A DNA stretch of 63,505 nucleotides from a virus. Both the position numbers and the translations under genes were made by a program. Within the stretch, counting starts at the first letter, position 1; each line of letters starts with the position of its first letter. The notes under the pieces were generated by a model. It had not been told where the DNA came from. It saw only the letters and a program-made list of their open reading frames with translations, and did no database searches. The DNA lies in the IMG/VR virus record IMGVR_UViG_3300020578_000067, positions 1 to 63,505 of that record. One strand, written 5' to 3'. Positions 10,023 to 44,900 of the stretch are shown one piece after another.

Positions 10023-11345
10023 TTAACTCCTAATTAATTTATGAAGTTCGTTGCCAATCCATTCGGCAACTGGTGAGGCTATTGCATTGCCACACATTTT
10101 ATACCGATTGGTATCGGCAATTTTTTTACCATTAGAATCAAGTTGAGTGTGGTTATCAGGAAAGCCCATTAATCTTTCACATTCTAAAGGTGTTAATCTT
10201 CTTAAGACAAGCTCTGGTGTGCATACAGCATGTTGAGATGTTGTATCAATAGTATAACTAGGATCACCAACATCACCAAATCCTTTTCCAGCTGGCCCTG
10301 CCGTGTCTGAGCGACCAATCAACGTGCCCTGTATTGGAATAGCAATTTGTTCACCAACCAAGGGTACTTGCCCTCCGCCTGTGCCCATCCTATGTTTCAA
10401 GGTTGGGAAGATTTCATCTTCATATATGCGCACATCGTTGACTCTAGTACCGTCAACAATTAAAACAGTAGCCCTGCTCTCACCACTATTATCAAAAGAA
10501 TTTAAAGTAGGACTGGTTTCCTCGCTACGCCACACTTCGGCTGGCAGGTTACCTTCATCATCTCTAGCGCCCGACCTAACCACCTTGACATACGGTTCAG
10601 GAACGGAATTCATATCAGGTCGTTCATGATTGTAGAAAGATGTGCTCACCCCTCCTTGACCGTATTTACTATATCCTGTTTTTCTACACCAGATAGGTTC
10701 ACTAATGCCTGCCTCAAGGGCTCGGGCAGCCTGTTTCCTTTTCTTTCTGCCCTTTTTAATATCCCCATCGCTGTCTTTGGGGACAGATAATATTTGACCT
10801 CCACTTCGCTCAATGGCTGTAGGATCCCAACAAGCGACGAGAAAAACCCTTCTTCTTCTCTGGGCGACTCCGAACCACTGTGCATCCAACACATGCCATT
10901 CAATTGCCAATGCCCCGATGTTTGCCATTTGGTTGATGACTTCACCGAAATCTTCTCCTTTATTGCTTGTGAGGGCACCAGCGACATTTTCCCAGATTGC
11001 CCATTTTGGATATTCTCCGTTTGTTGCATCTCGCATCTCCTTTATTATTCTTACACCTTCAAAAAATAAACCAGATCTTTCTCCTCCTAGACCTGATCTT
11101 TTACCAGCAACCGATAAATCCTGGCACGGCGACCCAAAAGAAATTAGATCAACAGCAGGAAGCATCTTTGCGCTTACAGTTCTCACATCTTCGTATTTGA
11201 TTACACCAGGCCAATGTCTTTTTAAAATTTCTTGACAATTTTTATCCCATTCAACTTGGAATTTACAATCCCAACCTGCTGCATCAAAACCTAAGTCAAA
11301 TCCACCGACACCGGCAAATAAACTTCCATAAGTTAATTGTTTCAT
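10023..11345 (-). CDS. DNA (cytosine-5) methyltransferase
   Basis: Methylates C5 of cytosine in DNA using SAM, probably to evade host restriction. All main motifs are present: I 'LFAGVGGFDLGF', IV 'FGSPCQDLS' with catalytic C74, VI 'WENVAG' (E119), VIII 'QRRRRVF', IX 'RRLTPLECERLMGFPD' and X 'GNAIASPVAEWIG'. The 440-aa length leaves a sizeable target-recognition region between VIII and IX (residues about 195-375). The gene has AAGGAAAA upstream and directly follows a Dam-type methylase. No cognate restriction enzyme is visible, so it is an orphan phage methylase. Confidence 0.95.
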   Translation of the reverse strand: MKQLTYGSLFAGVGGFDLGFDAAGWDCKFQVEWDKNCQEILKRHWPGVIKYEDVRTVSAKMLPAVDLISFGSPCQDLSVAGKRSGLGGERSGLFFEGVRIIKEMRDATNGEYPKWAIWENVAGALTSNKGEDFGEVINQMANIGALAIEWHVLDAQWFGVAQRRRRVFLVACWDPTAIERSGGQILSVPKDSDGDIKKGRKKRKQAARALEAGISEPIWCRKTGYSKYGQGGVSTSFYNHERPDMNSVPEPYVKVVRSGARDDEGNLPAEVWRSEETSPTLNSFDNSGESRATVLIVDGTRVNDVRIYEDEIFPTLKHRMGTGGGQVPLVGEQIAIPIQGTLIGRSDTAGPAGKGFGDVGDPSYTIDTTSQHAVCTPELVLRRLTPLECERLMGFPDNHTQLDSNGKKIADTNRYKMCGNAIASPVAEWIGNELHKLIRS

Positions 11346-11346
11346 T

Positions 11347-11742
11347 TTATTTTCCTTTAAATATAATTAGAGCAGAAGGGAATGGTGCGGGGTTCTTCTG
11401 GTCGTCAAACTTTAGTCTACCCTTGATAAAACGAATTTCATCAGAATTCATGACAAAGTTATGCCACCACCGAGTATCGGTACGACTAGGAATAAGAAAA
11501 ACTGAAGTCTTCCCTTTTGCCTGTTCCTCAACAGCTTTTTCTAACCACTTGGCAATAACATTGCCATAAGGAGGGTTAACGAAATTACAGTTACCCCATT
11601 CAACTTCCAAACCATCAAACTGAGGATTAGGAGGACAAGGATCAAAATCAAAATTAAATTCTTCATTAAGTTTCTCATAAAATGCCTTTGGTGTTTTCCA
11701 GTTATCTCTTGCAGCAGTAAAATGTACTTTACTCTTATTCAT
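11347..11742 (-). CDS. Phage DNA N6-adenine methyltransferase (Dam type)
   Basis: Methylates adenine in DNA. The short 131-aa protein has the phage Dam layout: 'NWKTPKAFYEKLNEEFNFDFD' at the N-terminus, the catalytic NPPY (56-59) in 'CNFVNPPYGNVIAKW', then 'VFLIPSRTDTRWWH' and 'GRLKF'. It is coupled to an upstream microgene by an 8-bp overlap. With the neighbouring Dcm enzyme the phage can mark both adenine and cytosine. Confidence 0.9.
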   Translation of the reverse strand: MNKSKVHFTAARDNWKTPKAFYEKLNEEFNFDFDPCPPNPQFDGLEVEWGNCNFVNPPYGNVIAKWLEKAVEEQAKGKTSVFLIPSRTDTRWWHNFVMNSDEIRFIKGRLKFDDQKNPAPFPSALIIFKGK

Positions 11743-11896
11743 CCCATTTTTTCCCTATAATAATTTTTGGTGTTTCATGGCATATTCCACATCTACCCCA
11801 ACTACCATTGCCCCAGTGAGTTTTCCACTCACGACAGCATTTAATTACTATTTCAGGACCGTACCGCTGCACTAATTTTTTTCTACCTTCATTCAT
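11735..11896 (-). CDS. Small Cys/Trp-rich protein, 53 aa
   Basis: The frame opens at an ATG at 11896 that overlaps the stop of the nuclease-like gene by 8 bp and ends inside the start of the Dam gene. Coding character is supported by this tight overlap at both ends. The protein has Cys residues in 'IKCCREW' and 'GRCGICHE', a possible zinc site, between basic segments. It is too short for family recognition. Confidence 0.6.
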   Translation of the reverse strand: MNEGRKKLVQRYGPEIVIKCCREWKTHWGNGSWGRCGICHETPKIIIGKKWDE

Positions 11897-12188
11897 AATC
11901 ACTGTCTCGTATTAATTCTTTAAAGACATGCCATTCAACTATTGCAACTTTTACATCTGAATCTTCTCCAAATACAACCGAGATACAAGGATGTTTATGA
12001 TTTTGCTTCCAAGCATCTCGACGCATTTTAATCCAGGCTGTTCTGGATAAAGTGAATGACGCGCCATTATGTTTATAGTCAACGAGGAATTCATGAAATT
12101 CAGCATCCCCTTTTTTAAAACCCCTGCCAGAGTTTTTAACTGGTTTTGCACCATCTCTTTTCGCTTCTTGTTTTTCATTTCTTTTCAT
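11889..12188 (-). CDS. Putative PD-(D/E)XK-like nuclease, 99 aa
   Basis: Tentative. A basic N-terminus is followed by 'SGRGFKKGDAEFHEF', 'LVDYKHN' (a D-x-K strand), 'SFTLSRTAWIKMRRDAW' and 'HPCISVVFG'. The order Gly-Asp, then strand with D-x-K, then a Ser-rich helix resembles small resolvase-like nucleases of the PD-(D/E)XK superfamily (Hjc or VRR type). The start is strongly supported by AAGGAGG 6 bases before the ATG. It lies between microgenes in the recombination block near the RecA-like gene, which fits a DNA-processing role. Confidence 0.5.
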   Translation of the reverse strand: MKRNEKQEAKRDGAKPVKNSGRGFKKGDAEFHEFLVDYKHNGASFTLSRTAWIKMRRDAWKQNHKHPCISVVFGEDSDVKVAIVEWHVFKELIRDSDYE

Positions 12189-12339
12189 CTAAAGCCTCCT
12201 TACATAAACGACATGTAAATTTTTCTTTATTTTTTGTTACATAATACTTTCCACCAGTTAAACCGCAAGGAGTTTCGTAAAAATCCTGACCGTATTTACC
12301 GATTGAGTAATGAATTGTTATGTCGTCTTCAATTTTCAT
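12175..12339 (-). CDS. Small zinc-ribbon-like protein, 54 aa
   Basis: Open frame from an ATG at 12339 to a stop inside the next gene (14-bp overlap). The C-terminal half carries C-x2-C ('FTCRLC'), and one more Cys lies at residue 25. It has a mixed beta-like composition, and the ribosome binding site is weak. No function is recognised; it is one of four overlapping microgenes between the RecA-like and Dam genes. Confidence 0.55.
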   Translation of the reverse strand: MKIEDDITIHYSIGKYGQDFYETPCGLTGGKYYVTKNKEKFTCRLCKEALDEKK

Positions 12340-12343
12340 ATTA

Positions 12344-12444
12344 CTATTCTACTGGTTTGGAAGGCACAGCATAGTCGTCACCACGGCATGCACACGGGCA
12401 TTTGGATTGATTTTAAAATTACTCCCAAGGTCTTGATTTGTCAT
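12344..12444 (-). pseudogene. Frameshifted Cys-rich microgene
   Basis: An ATG at 12444 begins a short frame that stops at 12349. The -1 frame over the second half reads 'SKCPCACRGDDYAVPSKPVE' and stops at 12344, 4 bases before the next gene. That frame looks strongly protein-like (C-x-C-x-C) but has no start codon of its own. A single -1 shift near the TTTTAAAA at about 12411-12418 would give a continuous peptide of roughly 34 residues. A base error, a real frameshift or chance cannot be separated here. Confidence 0.35.
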
Positions 12445-12544
12445 GTTTGTCTTCCATCCTTTGCACAGCAGCCATAAAGAAAACAATACACAATCCCAAA
12501 GCAAAACCAACAGGATCACAAATAAAAGTTTTAATCTTGTTCAT
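12419..12544 (-). CDS. Single-pass membrane microprotein, 41 aa
   Basis: An ATG at 12544 lies inside the end of the RecA-like gene (14-bp overlap). Residues about 7-27 are a hydrophobic helix ('VGFALGLCIVFFMAAV'), preceded by a Lys-containing start and followed by a charged tail, so it is probably an inner-membrane peptide with one segment. Function unknown. The ribosome binding site is weak and translation may depend on coupling. Confidence 0.5.
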   Translation of the reverse strand: MNKIKTFICDPVGFALGLCIVFFMAAVQRMEDKHDKSRPWE

Positions 12545-13457
12545 TAGATATAATCCTAGCAGATATATCGGCTATCTGCTTTTCATCTAGTTCAATCTTA
12601 CTAATTCCGTTCCACTTTTCTTCTTTATAAAAGAACCAAGCTCCCCTCCTTTCAATAATGTTCATCTCAACAGCAATATCAAGGAGTTCACGATACTTGT
12701 CCAAGATACCTTCTTGGGGAAGGACATAGTAATGACCACTTGTCCCGATGCTTGGAATTTGCTTTGTCTTTTCAATTGTCCAAGTGACTCGCTGTGAAGT
12801 AATCATGTTTGTGTCATCCCTTTCCATTTCCTTAGAAGACATTGACAAAAACAGTTTAACAATATTGTGCATGTTGTGATGAACAGTGTTGCCCATTTTT
12901 GCTTTTGTAACTGCATACATACCAGAAAGATCAATAGTTTGATGAGCAATAAACATCATCATATTTCTTTCTTTATGTAGATAGTTGACTAATTTTTGAA
13001 GCAGGAAACCTTGAGATCTAGACTGCAGACCCATTGCTTTGCCACCTTCAGGCTTGTCGTAAAACTCTTCCTTAATAATATTTGAGAGAGAGTCAAATAA
13101 AAAAATATGTTTTTCTTCTTCATGAGTCAAATACGGATAGACATTCTTAAGAATATCTTCTGCAACTGTTGATTGAATGACAACAATGTCATCAATATCA
13201 ATACCACACTTGGCAGCATACCCTTCGTTAAAAGAATATTCAGAATCAACAATAACTGGTCGGAATCCTCTTGCTTGTGCCTCGGATAAAATCCTAAAGG
13301 CCATCGTGGACTTGCCCACTGATGGCGTACCCCAAAATAAATGTGTTGCACCTGTGTTCAAACCTCCACCCAATGCTCTATTTAATCCAACGCTGGGCGT
13401 AGGAATAACCTCATGAACTGGCATGGTGTCACCCTTGCGCTTATCAACTATTAACAT
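12531..13457 (-). CDS. RecA/UvsX-like recombinase
   Basis: ATP-dependent strand-exchange protein for phage recombination and recombination-dependent replication. The 308-aa RecA core shows Walker A 'GTPSVGKST' (43-51), Walker B 'HIFLFDSLSN' (D122), and an 'MMMFIAHQT' strand followed by the DNA-binding loop region. The N-terminus matches the start of the core ('PSVGLNRALGGGLNTGATHLF'). It is shorter than bacterial RecA because the C-terminal domain is reduced, as in UvsX-like proteins. The ATG is preceded by AGGAATAAAAA. A RadA- or DnaB-like ATPase is less likely given the L-loop layout. Confidence 0.8.
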   Translation of the reverse strand: MLIVDKRKGDTMPVHEVIPTPSVGLNRALGGGLNTGATHLFWGTPSVGKSTMAFRILSEAQARGFRPVIVDSEYSFNEGYAAKCGIDIDDIVVIQSTVAEDILKNVYPYLTHEEEKHIFLFDSLSNIIKEEFYDKPEGGKAMGLQSRSQGFLLQKLVNYLHKERNMMMFIAHQTIDLSGMYAVTKAKMGNTVHHNMHNIVKLFLSMSSKEMERDDTNMITSQRVTWTIEKTKQIPSIGTSGHYYVLPQEGILDKYRELLDIAVEMNIIERRGAWFFYKEEKWNGISKIELDEKQIADISARIISNEQD

Positions 13458-13466
13458 TTTTTATTC

Positions 13467-14519
13467 CTATCTAAAAAAATCTGTTCCGAGTCTTTTTACA
13501 ACTGATTTCAAGAACTCATCACAGCGAGTTTTCCAATTATAGTTGGCGTAAACAGCCGGTGCCTGACCAAAATAGTATTTTATTTCGGTATCAAAGTTGT
13601 CTACAACTTTTCGCATAAGATACACTAATGAATCAACATTTGGCAGAACAACTTCTCCCTGGGTGTATCCTGTGTGTTGTGTCGGCCCAATTGTTGATTC
13701 AACAACATTTGACCCCAAATAATTTTCATAAGAACACCATACACCTGTTGATATCACAGGCATCCCTGTCGCAAGAGCTTGAAGCGGTATAAAACCAAAT
13801 CCTTCACCTTCACTTGGGTATACCAAAACATCATGATCATAGTAAAGTTGCACCATTTTTTCTTTGGTATACGTTTCATAAATATATTTAATACCTTCGT
13901 GTGGCGACACCAAGAATGATGAGTGACCAAAGCCCTTTGCTTCTTCATGACCGTGATATTTCAATGTCAAAGAAACATCCGCTCTATGACGAAAAGCCTT
14001 TAAAAAAGCCTCCTGAGCCAGATCAGCACGCTTACGGGGGCTTCCAGAATCAATATGCAGGAATTTTATTTGACGATTGTTGCCTCTTTTTTTAGGTTTC
14101 CACACATCATCAATACCCATCTCAAAAACATATGTTGGAGTTTTAATATTAGAATTTAATACAGATTGTTGAGCAAAAAAGTTGCCAACCCAAATTTCAT
14201 TAACAGAATTCATAGCATCAATCCAATGATCCCAAACTTTAGTTGCTTCTAAATGCACCCCTTGTATTTTGTATTGATGATCGTAAAATTTTTTAAAATC
14301 TGGAGAGCGCAAATTTTGCATGTTATGCAAGTTATACCACTCTGGTTCCATATAGAATAATTGAGTATTTGCATCTGGTGAATTTTCCAAAACTTGCATT
14401 TTTTTGTTTCTATATGAAAATTTTGGAAAATGTTCCAAAAATTTATAATAACTGTATGAGTAACCCGAAGCGCCATTTGCATCTTTAATATGCTGGTCTG
14501 TATGCAGAGATATTTTCAT
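13467..14519 (-). CDS. GT-B glycosyltransferase (GT4-like)
   Basis: Sugar transferase, 350 aa, acceptor unknown. Donor-site motif 'VLVYPSEGEGFGFIPLQALA' (E-G-x-G-x-x-P), the second-domain entry 'KFLHIDSGSPRKRADLAQEA', and an N-terminal 'SLHTDQHIKDANGASGYSY' that could be the acceptor-side Gly-rich loop. It is coupled by ATGA to a methyltransferase-like gene, which is coupled in turn to a second methyltransferase. The three look like a small modification operon placed after the DNA polymerase gene. It is related to the gene at 5412-6491. Confidence 0.85.
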   Translation of the reverse strand: MKISLHTDQHIKDANGASGYSYSYYKFLEHFPKFSYRNKKMQVLENSPDANTQLFYMEPEWYNLHNMQNLRSPDFKKFYDHQYKIQGVHLEATKVWDHWIDAMNSVNEIWVGNFFAQQSVLNSNIKTPTYVFEMGIDDVWKPKKRGNNRQIKFLHIDSGSPRKRADLAQEAFLKAFRHRADVSLTLKYHGHEEAKGFGHSSFLVSPHEGIKYIYETYTKEKMVQLYYDHDVLVYPSEGEGFGFIPLQALATGMPVISTGVWCSYENYLGSNVVESTIGPTQHTGYTQGEVVLPNVDSLVYLMRKVVDNFDTEIKYYFGQAPAVYANYNWKTRCDEFLKSVVKRLGTDFFR

Positions 14520-19569: not shown

Positions 19570-20214
19570 TCACCAAGTGTCTTTTTCAATTTCTCCGGTT
19601 GTATAAAACTTCTCCTGCTTCTCATAAGGAAGAGTTAAATACATATTTGTAAGATCATGATATGGCAAATTCTTAATTGAATCTGGCATTTCAGAAACCT
19701 CAAGAGGGATCAGGCTGTAGTTTGTATCTGATGCACCTGAGCCAGTTCTAGAAATCTTATAGAACCGGTCTGTGATCGTACCAAACTCCTTGGCATACTC
19801 AATCAGAGTAAGACCAACATGGCGCTGATTAAAAGTCGTGTCAAGAACTCTCGGCTCCCAAACACCCGGCTCTGTCTCAACAGCAATGTTGATCAGAAGA
19901 TGAGGCTTTGGTCTCCAAGCTTTATCAACAGTAGACTTCTCAGCAGCCCAGCAACGATAGTTGTACTTTTCTAAACCGGCAGTAGAGGCAGCCCTCCACT
20001 TCCAATTAATTGGCGATGTAACAACCGGCACATTAATTGCAGTACCAGACTCATCGTCATAATTCTTAGCGTCCTCCGTCATTTCCTGACGGAATCTGAT
20101 CCGGTACGACTCTCCTGCCGACACCGTGAAATATTTCTTAACAGATGATTTTCCACCTTGTGGTGTGACCACCTGCTTTTCTAATTCATTTAAAGTTTTC
20201 ATTGATTTAAACAT
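19570..20214 (-). CDS. Putative single-stranded DNA-binding protein
   Basis: Tentative. 214 aa, beta-rich, with aromatic and basic residues in the first half ('YFTVSAGESYRIRFRQEM', 'INWKWRAAS', 'NYRCWAAEK'), as in OB-fold SSBs. Position between primase and polymerase, just before a stable hairpin, suggests an abundant replication protein. It lacks the usual acidic SSB tip but ends acidic ('GEIEKDTW'). AGGAG lies 7 bases before its ATG. No sequence motif proves ssDNA binding. Confidence 0.45.
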   Translation of the reverse strand: MFKSMKTLNELEKQVVTPQGGKSSVKKYFTVSAGESYRIRFRQEMTEDAKNYDDESGTAINVPVVTSPINWKWRAASTAGLEKYNYRCWAAEKSTVDKAWRPKPHLLINIAVETEPGVWEPRVLDTTFNQRHVGLTLIEYAKEFGTITDRFYKISRTGSGASDTNYSLIPLEVSEMPDSIKNLPYHDLTNMYLTLPYEKQEKFYTTGEIEKDTW

Positions 20215-22512: not shown

Positions 22513-22820
22513 TCTTTCATCATTCTGTCGTGAGTGTCCTTAACAATTTGCATAAACATGTTCTTAGACTCTCGTTCTTGCTTTACCTTGTCTGTAATTT
22601 TTTTAGACTCAACCGCAAAATCAAAAATAAGAAACGGTCCTGGTCTTGATTTTACGAAATGGGTTATGGAATCAAACAACAACCCTGAGTCGTAGTGTTC
22701 GGCTAATGCTTGAGCAACAGCCTCTTGCCTCGGTGAATCTGGAATAAATAATTTATTTGATTCTCTGCAGGATTTTTCTAAGAACAGAAGAAGATCTTGT
22801 CCTGTTGTTCTGTCGCTCAT
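22509..22820 (-). CDS. Hypothetical protein, 103 aa
   Basis: Unrecognised soluble protein, mostly helical, with no Cys. The ATG at 22820 has a strong AAGGAGG and lies inside the 3' end of the WhiB-like gene (68-bp overlap). It is coupled to the helicase gene by ATGA. Candidates would be a helicase loader or regulator by position; the sequence does not show this. Confidence 0.6.
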   Translation of the reverse strand: MSDRTTGQDLLLFLEKSCRESNKLFIPDSPRQEAVAQALAEHYDSGLLFDSITHFVKSRPGPFLIFDFAVESKKITDKVKQERESKNMFMQIVKDTHDRMMKE

Positions 22821-23058
22821 TTTCAACCTCCTTCCAAGTGTAGTTTAGATATTCAAATTCAGAAATACCACCGTAAGTTCCATAAATGTCTCCAGAATTC
22901 CATGCATATGTAAAGCACTCTTTTCTTACTGAACATTCATTGCACACTTGAACGGCTTGTTCTATTTCTGATTTTTTGTATGAAAACCAAATACTTCTAT
23001 CTTTGTGTTCAAAACACAAAGCTTTAGATTTCCAATCTTGCGTATTACTGCTTTTCAC
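22753..23058 (-). CDS. WhiB-like iron-sulfur transcriptional regulator
   Basis: Redox-sensitive [4Fe-4S] transcription factor of the Wbl family, which works by binding the host sigma factor. Four conserved cysteines C15, C39, C42 and C48 ('CNECSVRKEC'), a Trp/aromatic position in the C15-C39 interval, and the beta-turn 'GDIYGTYGG' (56-64, usually G-[VI]-W-G-G). It ends in a basic tail for DNA contact. 101 aa, GTG start. The family is restricted to Actinobacteria and their phages, so this gene identifies the host phylum. Phage homologues can repress host whiB genes or steer late transcription. Confidence 0.9.
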   Translation of the reverse strand: MKSSNTQDWKSKALCFEHKDRSIWFSYKKSEIEQAVQVCNECSVRKECFTYAWNSGDIYGTYGGISEFEYLNYTWKEVENERQNNRTRSSSVLRKILQRIK

Positions 23059-32593: not shown

Positions 32594-32988
32594 TACACTT
32601 CCTCAAAAACCATGTTAACTCTATAATAATCACAACCTTGAGAAATTTCTCTTCTTATAAGAGATTCCGAATAAGATTGGAGATATACATCTATTGTTTC
32701 AGCATTCTCATCTGCTGTAATTTTTATTTTCATTGGTATTTTATTTGCAATTGCTGTAAGCGACTTTAAATAATCCCGCCCTTTTCTATTGTCTATTGTT
32801 TTTGAAGAAAGAGATGGCAAATAATCCCATTGAAAAGAAAATGTTCTTTTAATAGACCTGTAATATCTTCTTTTGGAGCCAGAGTCCAGTTCAACTTCTG
32901 AGGCATTAATGTTTATCACATCATTTATTTGTCGGCCCTGCTCGGTAATTTCTTGATTATTTAAAGACAAAAAACTTACAATTGTCAT
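32593..32988 (-). CDS. Distal tail (Dit-like) protein
   Basis: 131 aa, beta-rich. Located directly after the tape measure gene with TAATG coupling, the standard place of the distal tail ring protein in siphophages. Homologous along its length to the C-terminal half of the next gene (see 31592-32593), so the two arose by duplication. No motif independent of context proves the role. Confidence 0.65.
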   Translation of the reverse strand: MTIVSFLSLNNQEITEQGRQINDVININASEVELDSGSKRRYYRSIKRTFSFQWDYLPSLSSKTIDNRKGRDYLKSLTAIANKIPMKIKITADENAETIDVYLQSYSESLIRREISQGCDYYRVNMVFEEV

Positions 32989-35900
32989 TACATTCCTCTA
33001 TTCAAGCCATTATATGTTGTTATAACCCTTGATTCAAGACCGGCTTGTTTTTGGTTGGCTGGGACAACCTTTACATTGTATTCCCTCATCATTGAATTAA
33101 ACCATTCTTTTTCACCAATAAAGTTATCAACATAGAAGTTATAATTATGAGTACTTTCAGAATTTAGACTTTGTACTCCAACTCCTCCGTTTACAATTTT
33201 TGCATATGTTGACATTGGTGGAACATACTTTGGTATTTCCGGGACAGAGATGTTGCTGACATAGCCACCGACTTTGTATTGTTTAGCCCCACTAAATATC
33301 CCTTTATTTATTCTTGAAAGGAGATCAATACCGTATTTATCAACTGATGCTTTGTTAATAACATATTCTCCGCCATGAAGAATTGCTGGCACTCCAAGGT
33401 CCGACAGACCTGTGATCCGCCCCCCTTGGAAGCGTCCTTTTGCTCGGTACCCGTCTAAGTAAAGCTGTCTTTTTCTATAAACATCTTCTCCGCCGGGGAA
33501 AAATTCTTTTCTTGATTTTGCATCCCAATCAAGCGGGTTACGAAGTGCCTTTTCCGATCTTGGCTTCCACCCCTCAAGTCTTAATTTTTTTGATTCATTT
33601 GGTTTTGCTATAGTAGTCCAGCCCCCAAGACCTACCGAATCTTTCTTAGTGTCAGCAGTTTTCTTGGTCCAGTTTTCGTCCATAAAATTAGAGTCCCAAC
33701 CAAGAGCAGCCATTCTATTAGCAACCAGCATTTGTTGCAAAGGGGACGCTTGACCTGCTGTTTGTGGATTGCCGTATAGCAATGTACCGCCAAAGTCTTT
33801 CCAAGCTTTATTATTTATACTTAAGCCACCAGTTTTTTTCTTAGAAGTATAGCCAACTTTATCCGCGTCCTCTGCCCAGCCGTGCGCTGATTCTTTTGGC
33901 TGTACCAAATTCCACCATTTTTCGGATAAACCACCGTTTTTCTTTTGTTTTTCAAATTCAGCTCTTTCTTGTGCAACTTGTTTGTTTTCCCCTATTTGTT
34001 TTCCAAATTCTTTTACAATTCCACCCTTAAAGAATCTTGGGATTAAACCACCAGTAAAACTTCCGTCAGGATCGGGCGGGAGACCTCTCTCGATCCGCAG
34101 CTGGTCTAGGAGTTCTTGTATCTCATCTTCTCTTGAACTTTGAATATATGCTATCTCTTCTGAACTCAAGACAAGGCGAATGTTGTTTAAGGTTCTGTTA
34201 ACGTTTTCTCTCATCTCGTCCACGATCGCGGCCGTCTCTTCAATGGCTCTTCTTTCTGCTTCTCTATATGCCATTTCTGCATTTTCTAATTCAATGTCTC
34301 TCATGGAGTCTGCATGCTGCTGAGTTTCAGATGTTTCAGCTCTTCTTGTGGAATTAGTTGCTATTCTTCTTGGCAGTGGTTGTGCCCATGGAGAAGAAGC
34401 ACCATCAGCGGCATCTGGATGTACTCTTGTATTTGTTGGAATCTTTTCTTGCAATGGTTTTAAGATTCCTCTAGCTTGGTTGCGATACTGCGCTAAGTGA
34501 GCAACAACCGTTTCCACTCTTAATCTTTCATACATATCAGATAATGGATTCTTCTGTAGGGCAATATGACTGCCCCTCCAAAGGTCCAACATCTTTACTT
34601 TCCAGGGTATATTTAACCACGTTTGCGCAATATCGTTTTGGGTACCAGCGAGATCGCCCCCAGTTATTCGCCAGTCAACACCAGGCAACATCTCACGAAC
34701 AGACCGACCAAAATTCTCAGAAAAAGGATTTGTGCTACCTGATCTGGCCATAGTTATATTCCTAGGAACAATAACCCTATCAAAAAGAAATGCCATACTT
34801 TTGAGCATTGCTTTTAATGTAGAGCGGTTCGCCATCGGGTTCCTTGGGTCGTTTGCCGAATAGAGACCTGAAATTCCTATCTCATTCCCTCCAGTGTGAT
34901 AACTCATAGAAATAAGTCTCCTAAACACTGCTTCAGACTGAGGGTCCGAAAGTAAGTTCATATCGCCCCTCGGGGCAAAGGCGGGATCCATATTCCTCAG
35001 GAAATCTAGTATGTCTGTTCGTCTTTTTTCATCTAATAATTGAAAAACATTAAAGCCGTCAGGATCGGGGCCAAGACCAAAAACATATTCATTTCCTTTT
35101 TCTGCTTGTTTTATTATTCTTTTAATTTCATCTAAAGTCAATTCATTTGAGAACGGTATTGATCTACGAACAAATTCAGAAATTTTTTTTACAAGAACTG
35201 CGACAGGATCTGTTTGATTTAACACATCTCTTATTCTTGTAGTAGAGTATAATTCATCAATTAATGCTCGACCTTCTTGATCTATCCGAAGACTTTCCCC
35301 GTATTCTTGCCAAGTAAGAGGAATTCTTCTAGGTATACCTGGAATATCAGCCGCAGAAAGCGTCTGATTCGCTCCAGGCAAATTAGCCGAATACATCCGG
35401 TCAAGGGTTTGTCTAATTTCAGCAAGCCTATCTGAAGTAGTCAATGGACCATGAGAGCCAATCATTATTCCTCTTTCAACTTGGGTTGCAATCCTCATGG
35501 CTTCTTCTTGTTGTCTTAGCAACAACTCTCGCTGCTCCTCTAGCGCTCGTCTTTGTGGGCTTGTTGGTCTTGCTATGGGGTTCTTTAGTGTTGGTCTCAA
35601 TTCAACGGGCGTGAGGTCTCTCATCCTCCCTGGAGACAGTGGTCTATAGCCGAATGCTGGGAAACCCATCAGAGGATCTGAGCGTTGGCTGGGTGATTGC
35701 GGACGTTGATAAATCCACCGATCAATTCCCAGATAGTCGTCCACGACGCGCCTATAATTGGAAGTTATATTTGTGTCTAATATTGGATTATTGAGACCAA
35801 AATAAGACCTAAAATTATTTGGTATATTTTTTATATAATTAGTAAAATTAGAATATTTTTGTATTAAAAGACTGCCAAGAGTTCGGCTTACAAACCTTTC

Positions 35901-38900
35901 AGCAAAAAACTTTTGAAGAAATGACTCATATTGTGGCGGTTCATCTGGTAAAAAAGCGTCACGAAATGATGGGGGTCTTGGGATTCGGGCGGGACCTCGG
36001 AAAAATCGATCAATTGAGTAATTCCGATTGGCCGGTTGTGATCTCAAAAAATCAAGAAGCTCTTCCCTTCGCTCACTTGCCACTAAAGCATTGAAAATTG
36101 GGCTAGGGGGATCTCCTTGCATCTGTCCCCAAGGAGGGCGGGGAATATCAGATCCAGGTCTCAATATATCAAAGGCCGCACTTCGCCACCGAGGGGGGGA
36201 AGTTCCATAAGAAACATTTATAAAAGTATCTTCCAACTCACGAACACTGCCAAAGTGTTCTTTGGCCATTTTCCTATAAGCCAATTGATCTTTAATAGCT
36301 TTTAAGTTCAATTTTGCTGGTTTAATAAATTTATTAATTAAAGGTTCTTTTATTTGCATTTTTGGCATTACCTGCCCTTGCATAAAAGATCCAAGCTTGC
36401 TTAATTCTGGAGTTGCATAAAGCCCCAGAGCTCCCGCAACCGATGAGGGTGTCTTTGAAAGAGAATTGCCAAGATTCATTCTTGCGTACAATTCATCGCC
36501 CCGTCCCGCAAGGGATTTAGAAATCCTAGAAACTAGATTTGGTGCAACCTTTGTGCCAACTGTTTTTGCAATTGGTTTTAATAGTTTTGCACCCGTTAGA
36601 AGAGCAACAACAGCACCGGCAAGAATACCAACCTCTTTCAGCCTTCCCTTTCCAGATACTTTTTCACCAGTTTCAATATCTTTGCCAAAAACGACTCTTG
36701 ATGCAATTGGCAATAATTCAATTGGGTTTATCAAACGAGCTCCAAAACCGAAAGCTTTCCAAGCTTTACCAAAAGTTGAGTTTTGAAAGTCTTCTCTTAT
36801 TTTTGCAAGTTTTTGGTCTTTTAATGGATCTGTGTAAGAAACGCTTGGCGTTTTCGCACTCGCAGCAAATTGTGCAGGGTTGTTAACTGCATATCTGATT
36901 CTGTCTCCAATATCTTCTTTGTCTGTTTTTTTCTTTGCTTTTGTTATTGGAGTTAAACCAACTTTGCCTTTTGATTCATCAAGAATCCCGCCCTTTGCTG
37001 AACCGACTCTTCCACCCGTAAAATAACCTTTTGTTTTATCGAATACGCCTTGATTGATATTTTGAAGCATTCCGCTACCATATTTATCAACAGCACTCTT
37101 TCTTACAACATATTCTCCACCATGTAGAACTGCGGGAATTCCCTGATGCATTGGACCGGTCGTTGGACCGCCTCCTGAATAATTAATTGGACCTCCGTGG
37201 AAGGCTATCGGAGTTTTACCTCTTGAACCACCAGCATTTTGTTTGAGACCACCAGCATTCTGTTTGAATTGGTTTGGGTTGATGTTTGTTGGGTATAGAG
37301 AAACCTCAACAAGTGATGGGTTAAGATATGCCTTATTTATAAAACCACTCAACTCATCTGTAGCAACCTTTGTCCAGTCTCGCCAAGGGTCTGTTGACTT
37401 TGAACGAGTTCTTGACCAGTACAAACCCACAGCAGCATGGTGACCAGTATCGGACAATGCTCCCCGTGCGCCTGAACCTGCTCCTGGTGCGCCCGTTGTT
37501 GTTGTCGTTGTTGTTGATTCACCAGCGGCTTCAAGTTCAGCCATTGTATCTTTAATTGCTTTTTTAACCGCTTCTTTGATTGCCAGTTTTTCAAGAGATT
37601 TGTTCATTTTTTGAACAACGCCGTCCATTGCAGAGCCTATTCCTGTTTGCGCCTTCAAAAGTTCTTGTTTTACAGATTCATTGGCATCAGCAATTGCTTT
37701 TGTGAAAAGACTCTTCAAACTCTTTGGATCGTCTCCTTGGTATTTTGATTCAAGATATGTATTTAAAGCATCAAGACCTGTCCCATAAGCGGTCTGGATA
37801 GAACCACCAGGGGCGAATGCCGCTGTAATTGCGGTTCCTTGACCGGTGAGCATTTGTCCTGTAATACCCAAAAGCGATTGAGCATTTCCACCAGTTCCGG
37901 TATCAAGACCAAATTTATTTCTGGCTACAGTAATGAGGCTATCAAAACCTGCGGAGAAGAAACCAACGGCTCCGGTTGTGGAATCCATACCGGCTTGTAT
38001 TTGTGCTGGAAGGGCTGTAAAGAAATTCTGAAATGCCGTAGATATATCTGAAGATGTTGTTTTTGCTCGCTCCGCAATTGTTTTAAATCTTGTTTCAAAG
38101 TCTTGTTGCGAGATCGCCCCCAGCGATGTTTGTGTTGAAATAAATGTTTCAAGTTCCTTGATTGATTCATCAAACAGTTTTGAAGCTTCTTCCCTTTGAT
38201 TTCTTATTATTGTTATTGCATTTGATCTGTTATATGACTGCAATTCTTTTGTGCGCTCTTTTTCAAGATTATTCATTTCATCAGTGAAATCTTGCTGGGT
38301 CTTCATTTCCTCTAAATCAAGATTTCTTGCATCGTCAATACGACCTTCATAAATAGCAAGCGCCCTGTTCTTTTGGTAGTTTTGACTTTGTAATTCTCTT
38401 TCTCTTCTTCTCTTTCTCCTATCAGCTTCATATTCTTCTGTTTTTGTAAGTCTTTCTTCTGCTTCCGCGAGGGCTTCAATACCAGCAATTTGATCATCAA
38501 AAACCTTAAGAGCAGCGTCTTTTTGTTGATTAAGAGCATCAACCAGCTCATTACCCAATTGAGATAATGTATTGCTGAGGTTAGAAACAACAGCATCATA
38601 GAAACTCTTTCTTACTTCTTCTTTGGCTTGTGCTGTGGCCTGAGACACCGCTTCTGCAATTTTTTTACCAGCAGCATTGGCGGCTGCTGGATCTTTGAAA
38701 GAGTTCAAAAATGCTTTTAAGAGACCCTTGCCAACTCCTGGCATTAGCGTCTCAATCTTCTCTCCTAACTTTTTTATGCCGACCTTTGCCTGATCGCCTA
38801 AGTTTCTAATGACATTAGAAGTTTTACCAATTAATCCATTAATTTTATCTCCAACAAAATCAATTGCTCCAGAAATACCGTTTTGCATTGCTTGTAAAGC

Positions 38901-41900
38901 ACCACGGATCTTGCCCCCCAACCCTGGGATCCAGCCAAGTCCTTTGGCAAGAAATTTAAGAGCTTCAAAGAAAAGGTTGTTAATGGCTTTTAATGACCAT
39001 CTAGCCGCATTAACAACACCAATAGGAATTTGTTCAAGCAGGTTAACTGCCGATATAGCCAAGAGGGTGATAATTTCAATTACCAGTGGCGCGAAGTACT
39101 GTGTTAGGAAATTCAAAAGCATCTTAAAAAGTTTTTTCAACCCTTCTCCAATCTGGCTAAATGCTTTTTCAATCATTTCACCACCCTTGGTTGAGTCACC
39201 TTTGAATTTTTCAAACAAGCCCCTAACCAAAAGAATAAATCCACCGATCACTTTCCAGACAGCTGATGCAATAGTTTTGAAAACGTTTAATGCAACGCTT
39301 ACAAATGGAACAACATATTTTTCAACAAACTCTTTAATGTTTTCGGCGGCCTTTTTAACATTTTGGCTGAACCTTTCAAGCCCTTTACCCATATCGTCCA
39401 TTGATTCTCCGCCCTCTTTTCCTGCTCCGAGGAAACCTGCAAAAAGATCAAAAAATGGGGCAAGGAGCGCAATTGCAGTATCTTTAACCACAAGAAGTGT
39501 TTTTTTGAAATTTTCCATTGCTCTTTTACCAGCTTCACCAAAATTACCAATAGTTTTTTTAATTGTGAAGAAGCCAGTAATGATTAATCCAATAACAAAC
39601 AAAATTGGCAAGCCAACTTTGGGAATTCTTAATAAACCTTGGACAAGAGATGTGAGCGCTTGGTCTGCAACCATACCGAACTGACCCATGTTGTATGTAA
39701 GTTGGTTTATCAAACCAGAAGACAAGAAGCCTGCCTGTCTTTGCAAACCGGCACTTGCTTTTTGAGCCCCACTCCTGAATCTATCTCTAAAAGTAGGTCC
39801 GGTTCCATCCCCCCTAAGCCCAGAACCTGCTGCTCTTAAACCAGCAAGCGCTGCTGCTCCTCGGGACGCGCCAGATGCTTTTGCATCTTCCATTGCTTGT
39901 TTAGCAGCTTCTCTTAATTTTCCTAAGCCAGTAGTGGCCGTAACAAAAACATTGGTTATTGTTTTACCAAAAGGTATAAAGCCAAGAGCAAAACTTGCTA
40001 TTCTTCCATGAGCAAAAATAATGTGTTTTGCAAATTGGGCACTTCCAAGACCAAACATTTTAACAGCAATACGAGCCGCTTCCAAACCTTTTATTAAACC
40101 TGTAGTATCAAGTCCAAAATTTTGTCTAATTCCTGAAAGGGCAGGATTCGTTACAAGATTTCCTTGTGCATTGCGGACATTCAGAGGTGTAGAATGAACA
40201 GTTAATGCTCCGTAAATGTTTCCAATACTTGCAATATTTTTTGTAAGCCTATCAAAGAGTTTACGAGCTGCTTCACCGGCTTTCTTTTGTCCTTCTGTTG
40301 CTGTTAGCTGTTGTCCTTCAATTATCGTTCTTTCAAGATTTGCAATGAAATCTATTGCTGATTTTCTTAAAAGACCGCGAACTGCCAAGATTGGCGCAAG
40401 GGCTGGCCCAACAGTTACGCCTACGCCAAGTCTCGCAGGGGTAAGACCTGCAAAGAATCTTCGCACTCGCCCAGGAGTTCTACCGGGAGGCGTTGGACCG
40501 CTTGGAGGCGTTGGACCGCTTGGAGGCGTTGGGGGTGGACCGCTTGGAGGCGTTGGACCGCTTGGAGGCGTTGGACCGCTTGGAGGCGTTGGGGGTGTTG
40601 GGGGAGTGCTCCCTCCACCGGCTCCTCCTCTTGCTGATCTGGCGGCCCTCACTGCCGCAACTGTTTCTTTTATGTCAGAAATTTCATCACGAATTAGTGT
40701 TTCAGCTTTATCAATTTCATCATCAATTATTGTTCCAAAAAACTCAATAGCTTCTGAAGTGTCTCGTATCCCATCTGAAATGTCATACACCTCGGTTTTG
40801 ACTCTGTGTCTAAGGTCTTCCATTTCTTCAAGAATAACCAAGACCCATTGTTCAACATCAACACCCTCAATTTGGGCAAGTGGCTGCGCCCCCAATGCTG
40901 TAATCAAATCACTTAATTGATCAATTGTTGCTGTTTCAATTTTTGACAAACGATCTTTAATGTTGTCAATTGAATCTTTAAGGATTCTTTCTGGTTTACC
41001 AAGTTCTTCTGTTGCCAAAGCAATCATTGAATCAATATCCATACCCGAGTATGAACGACCAGTGAATTTTTGCAACTGGGCGATAAGATCAATAATTTGC
41101 TCAGATGTTCTGCTTTCTATTCTATAAAATTCTTCAATTAATTCATGAATCACATAATCAAATTCATCAGCAAAATCTGGAATGGGAGTGGAGGCAACAT
41201 CGTCAGCAACATCTGTGATGGTCTCTTTAGCAACCTCTATCTTTCTTTCAACCTCAACCGCAACTTCTTTCAAAGCTTCGGCTGGTGTTTTTGCAACATC
41301 GGCTGGTACGGGCACCGGCTTGATTTCTGCTGTTGCTGTTTCAATTGGTTCTATAGCAACAGTTGTTATTGATGCATCAACAACAATACCCATCTCTTTA
41401 AGTTTTGCGACAAGCGCTTGAATCTTTTGTGCAGAGTTTCCACCAGCAGCCTTACCTCTTACATCAAAAGCACGAAGAATATATCTTAATGTGTCGCTTT
41501 GGAACTCAGCAAAGTTTTGAGAAGCAACTCCTGTTTCAATAATTTGCTGTTTAATTCTTTCAGCCAAAATAAGTCTTTCATCTCTGCTTATACCAAACCC
41601 TAAACTAGCTGTTTTTGATGGAGCGCCAGCAACTGTCTTTTCTGGAGTTGTCGGCGTGGAGACTGCAGTTTCCTTTGGTTGGAATCTTGATATGGTTCTT
41701 GCCTTTGCCTTTGCAAGATCCATTTCTTCATTAAGAGTTTTTTGGAACAGAACGAGGCGCTTAAATAATTCTTCTATACCTCCACCTTTTTCAAATATTT
41801 TAATGTTTTTAAGTTTTGCAAACGCCTCAATTGGATTTCTAAGGGCATCTTGAATTGTTAAACCAATCTTTGCTAATTCATCTTTTAATTTTGAAACTTC

Positions 41901-44900
41901 ATCTATTGCCAAAGAGCCAGCAGTTGTCGCTATTACATCAAGCCCTTTACCTTGGGCTTTAAGCGTCTCTAAGAACGCAATAAGCACATCTTGTGCAACT
42001 TGCAAAGATTCTTCAATTTCGGCATTAATTTGACCCAATACCGTTGGACCGTCTGGAACGGCGGCACTTAAAGATTTTGGTCGTGCAGATCTTGGCAGGT
42101 CAGTAGGTTGTTTCTTAAATTCCTCAAGAGGTCTGAATGGAATATCCATTAAAGGCTGCATTGCCGCAAACAGGTCAGGGTATGAGAGGCTCTTGTATTC
42201 AGCTTCTTGTTGAATCGCTTTTAATTGTTTTACATAATGTTGGATTTGACTTGCTGTCATCGTTTCAAGGGACAACCCAGCTTTTTCTATTTTTTTAAAA
42301 AGTTCTACAATGAGATAATCGGTAGTACCTTTAATTGGAGGCTTAGTTCTTGATCTAATTTCGTTTGCCATCTCTTCCAAAGAGGCAAATTCTCTTGTAA
42401 AACTTTTTTGCTTAGCTTCTTGGTAAACTTCAATAGTTGTTTTTAAAGCTGCAATTAAACTGTCTGCTATATCTTTATCAATCTTGCCAGAACGAGCCTT
42501 TTTGATGAGGTTTAAAATCTGAGTTCTTGCTTCAGCAACTTCTGGTGGTATTTGTCGAGGTCTAATGTCCAAATATGGGTTTGGAGTTTTCCCTGATTGC
42601 ATCTGCAATTGAGTAACACCGGGAATTTTTTCCCCATCTCGATATAGAGGCTCATCTTCTCTACGAGCGGCTAGTCGAGCTTTGAACAGCCTTAGGCGAC
42701 CGCCATATGATTCTGATGCCTTTTTCCTTATAACTTTAATTTTTGAAATTTCTTCATTGAGCGTTTTTATTTGAAGGTTGTGTTCTTCAATAGCCTTATC
42801 AATTTCAACAATTTGAGGATCTGTGGTTAGAACGTTAAAATGTTTTTGCAAATCTCTTCTAACTTTTTCAAGGTCTTTAATCTTTTTTTGGACCGACGCA
42901 ATTTGCCCTTCTTTAAATTCAATAGCTTTTGATGCTTGCACCGAGCTCACAAGTTCTAGAATCATTTGTCTTCGCTGTTGTTCATAGAAAGTCAAAAATC
43001 CATCAATCTCTTCTTTGATAGATTGCTCTGCGGCAACAGCTAGTGCATCGTCTTTGTCATACGGGGCTAACTTCTTTGCGAGAGCTGCGCGAGACACCGC
43101 TTCGGCATCACCCTGTGCTGCAGCAGCTGTTCTGAGGATGTCAGACAAAATAGCAGTCTGTTTGCTCCCACCGCCTGGAACCAAAGCCTGTGCGCCAAAA
43201 TTTGCTCTTCCTCTACCAAACTGCTGCAGAGTAGATTTGATTGTTGATATATCCATTTGCAATAAACCTTCAACAGATGCGAGTTGTGGAAGGTTGTCTA
43301 TATAGACCCTTTCTATGTCACTTATAGGAATTCTTTCAAAAAGGTTTTGGATGAACTGGAGTGTTTGTGCAACAGATTTTAAACTGAAATCTGTAGTATC
43401 AAAAAGTTTTGCAGCTTCTTGCCAAAAACCTGGTAGAGTAATTTTTAATTTAGAAGCAATATTTCTTATAAGATCGCCTGTAATTCTGACACCACCCTTA
43501 CTTACTGCTCTGCCTGATATATAATATGAAGAGGCACCAAGATCTTTTAAAGCACTAAGTATGGCTTGTTCATCTTTTTGAATCAACTCAAGAGTTGTTA
43601 AAATGTTTTGTTTAGCAACTGTTTCATAATTTTTTTGCAAAGTTTGCATTAAAAGAAAAAGATCTGTTGATGTTGCTTCAGCTTGTGTAACAGCATGCAG
43701 AACTTTTCCAGTTGCTGGATCAACAAGGTCAAGACCAAAACCTTGTTTAAAAACTTTATTTAAATCTCTTAAAGCCTGTTCAAGTTTTTGAATTTCTTCA
43801 TTTATTTTTTTTAAATTGCTTTCTTCTGTTTCAATTTGTTGTTGTAAAATTTTTTTATAATTTTCAAAATTTGATTTTTGAGCAATTTCTGTTGTTAAAG
43901 AATTAATTTGAGCTTTTAAAGCATTAGCTTTTTTTTGATAAGCTCTATATGATGCCATCCCCGCTCTATCATCTTTATCGGGCACGCCCTTAGATTCTAG
44001 ATTTTTTTCAATTTTAGACAGTTCAGTTTCTAACTCTTTCAAATGTCCTTCTGCTTGTTGGCGCTCTTGTTCAACAACATCTTGAGTTATTTTTTTTAAT
44101 TTTTCTTGAAGTTTTTTAATATTTTTTAAACCTTTTGATTGTTTTAATCTGCGGAGCTCGTTTTGTACTCCTTTAGCATCTTGAACCAAACCCTCCTTAA
44201 CAATTTTCATTTCTTCTGGGGTTAAAGTTTCCAGAGAGCCGAGCCTTGCCCGAAGATCTCCCCCCATAAAACCTTTGTCTCGGGGCTGACGACCACGAAA
44301 CCGAGCGCGTGCAATTTTCCGGTATTGCTCAATCTGCTCTTTGTTTCTTTGAGCCATTGCCTCTCTTTCGGCTATCAAGCCTTCTGGCGACATCGCCTCG
44401 CGCAAAGAAACAATGACAGAAGCGTCGTCTCCGCCAAACTTGGTTCTTAATTTTTCTGTTAATGATTGAATTTCTCTCTGATGAGAAATCAAATCAGAGC
44501 GAACTTTTATTTTCTGGTCTTTTAAATCTTTTTGTATTTTTTTCTCTTCGGCTATTGTCTTATCAACAATAGCGACCGCCTCGGCTTGAATTGATTCTTC
44601 TGCTCTCATTGTTGGAGAAAGTTGTCCAATCAAAGACCTTCTAACTTGACTTTTTGCTTCAAACAATGATTTAAGTTTGTTCATTTCTTCATTATTTCCA
44701 GATCTGATTGCTTCACTTATTTGTTGTGAAATCAATGCCTGTTCTGCTTCAATTTGAGAAATTTCATTTTTAATTTGTGGCTGTTGTGCAACAAGCGAGT
44801 CGTATTCAGAAACTGCTTTTGTTGTTAATTCTGCAATTTTATTTGCTATTGCTTCGTCTCTGTTACTTTCAAGTGTTAAAATACTTTGGACCTTCTCTTG

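Follow-up and report, generated by a model that had tools for sequence, protein, structure and literature searches.

What is encoded in the short interval between the RecA-like recombinase gene and the Dam-type DNA methylase gene of this virus, and do its small open reading frames (ORFs) serve host takeover or the handling of phage DNA? The interval belongs to the window, the whole 63,505-nucleotide stretch of IMG/VR record IMGVR_UViG_3300020578_000067 analysed here. It had been read, from the letters of the sequence, as a chain of four to five overlapping microgenes, each overlapping its neighbour, of a kind that often encodes host-takeover or anti-defence factors in phages.

Arrangement of the locus

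The features of the locus are listed in Table 1. According to their coordinates, the RecA-like gene and p41 overlap by 14 nt, p54 and p99 by 14 nt, and p55 and the Dam gene by 8 nt; the overlap of p99 and p55 measures 14 nt from the GTG start of p55 and 8 nt from its ATG. p41 and p54 do not overlap and are 79 nt apart. A real chain is present, consisting of four minus-strand genes, but the proposed fifth peptide found no support, and the overlap of every gene with its neighbour is broken by the spacer between p41 and p54. The four labels of the sequence-only reading suit the proteins: membrane peptide for p41, zinc-like for p54, nuclease-like for p99 and Cys/Trp for p55.

Table 1. Features of the RecA–Dcm region, with positions in the window
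Feature	Position	Strand	Remarks
RecA/UvsX-like recombinase gene	12531-13457	minus	Upstream anchor of the module; Pfam RecA 1.3e-19, phrog_97 3.7e-38
p41, 41 aa, one predicted membrane helix	12419-12544	minus	
Spacer, 79 nt, no supported gene	12340-12418	minus	
31-aa ORF, part of the "frameshifted Cys peptide"	12349-12444	minus	Judged not a gene
p54, 54 aa, Cys/His-rich, putative zinc site	12175-12339	minus	
AAGGAGG, Shine-Dalgarno-like site for p99, within the p54 coding sequence	12195-12201	minus	
p99, 99 aa, putative Holliday junction resolvase	11889-12188	minus	phrog_2002 1e-15
p55, Cys/Trp-rich	11735-11902	minus	55 aa from GTG 11902, or 53 aa from ATG 11896
Dam-type DNA adenine methylase	11347-11742	minus	Pfam Dam 1.1e-18
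C5 cytosine DNA methylase (Dcm)	10023-11345	minus	Pfam DNA_methylase 6.4e-60

Pfam searches placed methylase and deoxyribosyltransferase genes downstream of the module. Promoter and terminator scans gave sites no more commonly than in shuffled sequences (7 versus 7.0; 1 versus 1.2), and a tRNA scan found no tRNA.

p99 is related to phage Holliday junction resolvases

The p99 protein matched phrog_2002, annotated as "Holliday junction resolvase", over residues 3-95, and the same family was matched by all 39 of the 39 aligned p99 members, that of the window included. When profiles were compared with hhalign, p99 matched the protein annotated as resolvase in Streptomyces phage Kenrey with a probability of 99.6% (1.3e-23). 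Four residues, E8, D28, D37 and K39, are invariant across the 39 sequences. Conserved acidic residues and a lysine characterize PD-(D/E)XK nucleases, and these positions may represent the putative active site that such a nuclease would need. By sequence, p99 is a member of the phage Holliday junction resolvase family phrog_2002, and it is referred to here as a putative resolvase.

The structural evidence was less conclusive. The predicted model of p99 had low confidence (pLDDT 64.6), with an order of helices and strands that could fit a nuclease fold; comparison with the PDB gave no significant match and no convincing match to a nuclease, which counts against a recombination module. The best PDB match of the p99 sequence profile was a telomere-binding Myb domain, with an E-value of 0.014.

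Gene order around the RecA-like gene

The RecA-like gene scored 71.1 bits against Pfam RecA, well above the cut-off of 27, and its phrog_97 match is UvsX-like. A RecA-like gene was located upstream of p99 in 70 of 81 sequences (80 loci and the window). The gap between the two ranged from -14 to 2633 nt with a median of 543.5 nt, and was zero or negative in 13 of the 70.

This slot accommodates variable cargo of up to 2.6 kb. ORFs of at least 60 aa formed 14 cargo clusters, ten of which were submitted to Pfam; nine had matches and one had none. Five of the ten resemble proteins of DNA or nucleotide metabolism, namely SNase, pyrimidine-dimer glycosylase, MazG, a deoxyribosyltransferase-like protein (below cut-off) and a C5 methylase. 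The remaining matched clusters are a glycosyltransferase, a ferredoxin, DUF6899 and another methyltransferase. The glycosyltransferase cluster, with 20 ORFs, was the commonest cargo. The window has a GT4-like glycosyltransferase gene of its own (13467-14519) upstream of RecA, and the 20-ORF cluster found between RecA and p99 in relatives (L028, L037 and others) looks similar to it; the glycosyltransferase seems to move around this locus.

The position directly at the RecA stop was compared in the 74 loci whose RecA 3' end could be used, p41-type genes being defined as ORFs of 36-50 aa with a hydrophobic stretch and a start near the RecA stop. A p41-type gene occupied this position in 31 loci (21 distinct proteins; the window and three near-identical contigs are among the 31), p99 in 14 and another ORF in 22, and seven loci had none. 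In two distantly related loci, L020 and L021, the order RecA, p41-like membrane protein, p54, p99 and p55 forms one overlapping chain. In Kenrey, the RecA-like gene is followed by three small genes and then by the resolvase. No description of the RecA/p41/p54/p99/p55 set was recognised in the titles and abstracts listed by literature searches, and a search combining Stanwilliamsviridae with Holliday junction resolvase gave no match.

Recombination module or host takeover

The locus is, in our judgement, likely to be a stretch of a phage DNA-recombination operon, probably translationally coupled; this estimate applies to the module and not to the roles of its small proteins. The RecA-like recombinase would make joint molecules in replication or repair, and p99 would cut four-way junctions, allowing DNA to be finished and packaged. 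Ribosomes that end one gene would start the next, keeping protein amounts in step. The accessory proteins of the module would be p41, with its predicted membrane helix and, in most relatives, an acidic-aromatic tail, and the putative zinc proteins p54 and p55.

This reading draws on several lines of evidence: the placement of p99 in phrog_2002, with homology and gene order in Kenrey; the association of RecA with p99, gapless in part of the sequences; the order kept in L020 and L021 and the frequent p41-type gene at the RecA stop; purifying selection on the four small genes, described below; the Shine-Dalgarno-like site for p99 inside p54, which is clear; and the methylase and deoxyribosyltransferase genes downstream. 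Several observations count against it. In 29 of the 74 loci, the position at the RecA stop is taken by neither p99 nor a p41-type gene. Homology of p41 to the L020 protein or to Kenrey gp68 could not be demonstrated, and Kenrey gave no p55 match. Few lineages are known to have p54, and in phage DSL-LC01 it follows a ribonucleotide reductase gene. Finally, p55 has a codon score like that of wrong frames and adjoins p99 in just 13 of its 27 loci.

The best surviving alternative is the earlier proposal of a host-takeover or anti-defence cluster, in which each of p41, p54 and p55 would inhibit some host function. Passages of PMC11323111 describe phage small proteins as often acting on the host, the Dam and Dcm methylases alongside are themselves anti-restriction candidates, and the RecA-p99 slot is variable, its commonest cargo, glycosyltransferase, falling in the PHROGs category of morons and host takeover, as does the glycosyltransferase of the window. 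However, p99 belongs by sequence to a family of recombination enzymes, half of the Pfam-tested cargo clusters look like DNA or nucleotide metabolism, and the order with RecA and p99 is kept in L020 and L021. PADLOC returned no match for p41, p54, p99, p55 or the 31-aa ORF, which is weak evidence, as its library consists of defence and not anti-defence proteins. Host takeover gained no support from the analysis and appears unlikely.

With the recombination module, a loose label of host-takeover microgenes is replaced by a testable proposal for presumed actinobacterial phages. One putative enzyme has been named and one false gene removed, and three uncharacterised small families, p41, p54 and p55, are now defined by alignments and kept positions and are open to annotation.

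The small proteins p41 and p54

The p41 protein has a hydropathy peak of 2.15, and its start lies within the RecA coding sequence. The C-terminal motif F(W/Y)E was found in 18 of the 21 distinct p41-type proteins; the window has PWE, and the tails of L020 and L021 differ. Relationships outside this group were difficult to establish. The membrane protein of L020 has no detectable sequence homology to p41, and a tblastn search with the relative from L052 found no p41 in named phages. Kenrey gp68 was considered as a homologue and rejected, as profile comparison gave no match and the likeness is confined to size and hydropathy. The PHROG matches of 19 p41 members were scattered over eight families, with a best E-value of 0.0034 and at most two members in each.

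The last p41 codon was GAA in 10 of 18 relatives and GAG in 8 of 18, which indicates that the ending is conserved as protein. Both phenylalanine codons and the W/Y variants also occur, and together this variation rules out that the FWE tail exists only to write the Shine-Dalgarno site of the next gene. GAG is nevertheless more frequent at the p41 end than at other sites (it makes up 189 of the 727 Glu codons of the large window genes and 6 of the 32 remaining p41 Glu codons), and in all eight GAG-ending relatives a gene begins within a few bases of the stop, on its downstream side. The choice of GAG at this position may serve the ribosome.

Single-strand-binding proteins recruit their partners through acidic tails. 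By analogy, p41 could be co-produced with the RecA-like recombinase and tether phage recombination to the membrane, where its acidic-aromatic C-terminal tail would hold the machinery of recombination or replication in place. We regard this role as a long shot; if true, it would make p41, at the RecA stop, the most surprising of the three small proteins.

Homologues of p54 were found in L037 (58%), L020 (51%), L021 (47%) and the Actinomycetia phage DSL-LC01 (49%, E 4e-11). Residues H10, C25, C43 and C46 do not vary among four aligned sequences, and L021, which is outside that alignment, keeps all three cysteines; this Cys/His pattern suggests a putative zinc site. As in the window, the p54 end overlaps the p99 start in L037, L020 and L021. 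Two scans of virus contigs for p54 yielded three and four loci, both missing L020 and L021, so that the p54 count is a lower bound.

p55 and the following DNA methylase gene

The p55 protein was detected in 27 of 83 sequences, including the window (E ≤ 1e-6); a divergent p55-like ORF of L060 is part of alignment A6 and stands outside the 27. Residues C20, C21, C36 and C39 are the same in all 18 sequences aligned. A DNA methylase gene directly follows p55 in 24 of the 27 loci: Dcm in 17, Dam in four (the window and its three near-identical contigs) and another C5 methylase in three (L053, L054 and L051, the last inferred from its first 30 nt). The predicted p55 model (pLDDT 85.7) is zinc-ribbon-like. 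Structural comparison gave weak matches, mostly to MCM N-terminal domains (best VIA Z 3.1, rmsd 3.9 over 48 residues), and Foldseek gave no E-value below 1.

In phage Mu, Com switches on translation of mom. A Com-like zinc regulator, switching on translation of the next DNA-modification gene, would agree with the methylase gene found next to p55 in most loci, with the start of the following gene lying within the p55 end, and with the zinc-ribbon-like model. Against it, the hhalign probability was 0.2% in a comparison with a single Mu Com sequence, by which distant kinship could be missed; six junctions of 88-91 nt had no unusual RNA structure (z from -0.23 to 1.32); and in L020, L021 and L057 no methylase adjoins p55. 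Tested in this way, with no detectable homology and no junction RNA structure, Com-like regulation by p55 received no support and is very unlikely.

The spacer between p41 and p54

A "frameshifted Cys peptide" had been proposed between p41 and p54; most of it falls within the spacer. Its components are the 31-aa ORF, with a Shine-Dalgarno-like GGAAG ahead of ATG 12444, and next to it, in another frame, an open stretch of 22 codons containing CPCAC. Codon usage resembled that of wrong frames: on a scale where genuine frames average about +0.165 bits/codon, the 31-aa form scored -0.127 and a 56-aa form -0.245. Scores as high as these occurred in roughly 36% and 60% of wrong-frame samples, respectively, and scores as low in 2.8% and 0.0% of real-frame samples.

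Clear matches among the fetched loci were restricted to three contigs, which are near-identical to the window (99.96-99.98% identity over 8 kb, with an identical p41-p54 junction). The composite peptide also gave a weak 14-residue match in L061/L062 (E 0.02), located in an ORF that is out of frame with a longer, 254-aa ORF. The 22-aa half had no match among named phages, and two DNA-pattern scans of virus contigs returned the three near-identical contigs and one chance antisense match and nothing else. In L020, the p41-like gene and p54 overlap by one base, leaving no room there for the peptide. With its wrong-frame-like codon score, no convincing homologue beyond the near-identical contigs and no space in L020, the peptide was rejected as a fifth gene, and a real product frameshifted from the 31-aa ORF is extremely improbable. 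In L037, cargo stands between the p41 and p54 positions, at the point of the spacer, and the 79-nt spacer is possibly the scar of lost cargo.

Coding evidence for the four small genes

ORF length was assessed against 5000 first-order Markov sequences of 830 nt each, with the composition found here. The longest same-strand ORF reached at least 99 aa in 1.5% of these sequences, and at least three ORFs of at least 53 aa were present in 1.3%. Consequently, ORF length alone is only mildly unlikely, and the real evidence for genes is conservation.

For p41, the median dN/dS was 0.35 and the maximum 1.04 (73 unsaturated of 136 pairs, from 17 of the 19 members in alignment A3); for p55, the median was 0.22 (53 unsaturated of 78 pairs, from 13 of 18 aligned members). 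A single p54 pair gave 0.30, and the two unsaturated p99 pairs of 10 gave 0.027 and 0.039, indicating strong selection. Comparison of L020 with L021 resulted in pN/pS of 0.028/0.266 for the p41-like gene, 0.031/0.302 for p54, 0/0.564 for p99 and 0.039/0.201 for p55. All four genes are under purifying selection. The codon scores of p54 (0.002) and p55 (-0.155) were weak; the score of p55 counts against a gene and is outweighed by conservation. That p41, p54 and p55 arose by chance as ORFs of a densely coding phage is hardly credible: each length is only mildly improbable and the codon scores of p54 and p55 are weak, but homologues of all three show purifying selection and kept positions.

A conserved +1-frame segment within the C5 methylase gene

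An ORF on the minus strand (10646-11029) is nested in the +1 frame of the Dcm gene and contains a segment like KYYLSPKACxGILRRAxxRGKxLPxxLxxAL. In phage C5-methylase genes (L117-L129; L130-L209), this segment is better conserved in the +1 frame than in the methylase frame. Eighty virus loci were picked by the methylase frame upstream of the segment; three were truncated and 77 usable. The motif L(S/T)x(K/R/Q)(A/T)xxG(I/V/L/M)(L/I) was present in the +1 frame in 73 of the 77, 21 of the 73 being duplicates, and in no frame in the remaining four.

Over 16 codons outside the motif in 15 distant non-duplicate motif loci, the +1 frame had a mean pairwise identity of 0.483, compared with 0.193 for the methylase frame and 0.241 for the +2 frame; 300 synonymous shuffles reached at most 0.173. 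In the same distant set, 20-10 codons before the motif, the methylase frame was better conserved than the +1 frame (0.71 versus 0.50), which indicates that conservation changes frame near the motif. This upstream contrast was not seen when all 52 loci were compared without gaps (0.36 versus 0.39).

Thirteen annotated phage records were found with a +1-frame query and are thus a biased set. By listed coordinates, the match lies +1 to the methylase gene in 12 of the 13, P1 (L126) included; the exception is FP_Toutatis, where the methylase is split and the match shares its frame. The strict motif occurred in 10 of 13 sequences (12 annotated records and the window). Identity over 30 codons in this strict-motif set was 0.344 in the methylase frame, 0.683 in the +1 frame and 0.318 in the +2 frame, and none of 500 shuffles reached the +1 value.

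An ATG, GTG or TTG in the +1 frame was located at most 15 codons upstream in 48 of 52 loci, so that a nested gene and programmed +1 frameshifting are both possible. The pattern points to a hidden nested gene, or to a product of programmed frameshifting, in the methylases of many phages, P1 included. Among the listed literature matches, no description of such a segment in C5 methylases was recognised; the methyltransferase passages of PMC5009743 concern a yeast gene.

Host and other genes of the window

The suggestion of an actinobacterial host was supported. The window has a WhiB-family gene (22756-23058, minus; Pfam 4.4e-13), and WhiB marks actinobacteria and their phages. The 136 named-phage records that contain a p99 relative (E ≤ 0.01) all belong to phages of Streptomyces (127) or Rhodococcus (9). 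A search of genome contigs gave two matches, in metagenome bins called planctomycete and archaeon, which we took for mis-binned phage and did not use for the host.

Two further ORFs are on the minus strand. One, of 5369 aa (32988-49097), makes up a quarter of the window. The other, a 214-aa protein (19570-20214) in the replication gene group, looks SSB-like by eye, ends in EKDTW and had no Pfam match.

Comparison with known systems

The pairing of p55 with a methylase gene resembles Com/Mom of phage Mu (NC_000929), where the gene of a small Cys-rich protein likewise stands immediately ahead of a DNA-modification gene and overlaps it. In contrast to this likeness in layout, p55 has no sequence match to Mu Com, its junctions have no RNA structure, and the methylase pairing is not universal.

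Phage DSL-LC01 (OQ999401) encodes a p54 homologue with the same Cys pattern, hypothetical protein WJZ48429.1. Its gene (L110, 9001-9183) directly follows a ribonucleoside-triphosphate reductase gene and is not beside RecA or p99; no relative of either was detected in the record, indicating that p54 is not tied to this module.

The upstream gene of the window has its family match among phage UvsX/RecA-like recombinases (phrog_97), and its protein is 27.5-28.0% identical to the best 15 of 421 named records. The closest parallel to p99 is found among the phrog_2002 resolvases, such as Kenrey gp70 (OQ995430), which p99 matches over nearly its whole length; p99 is 39-47% identical to the best 40 of the 136 named-phage records with relatives. 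The small neighbour genes in such phages differ from those of the window, but Kenrey gp70, like p99, lies downstream of a RecA-like gene; in Kenrey, three small genes separate the two.
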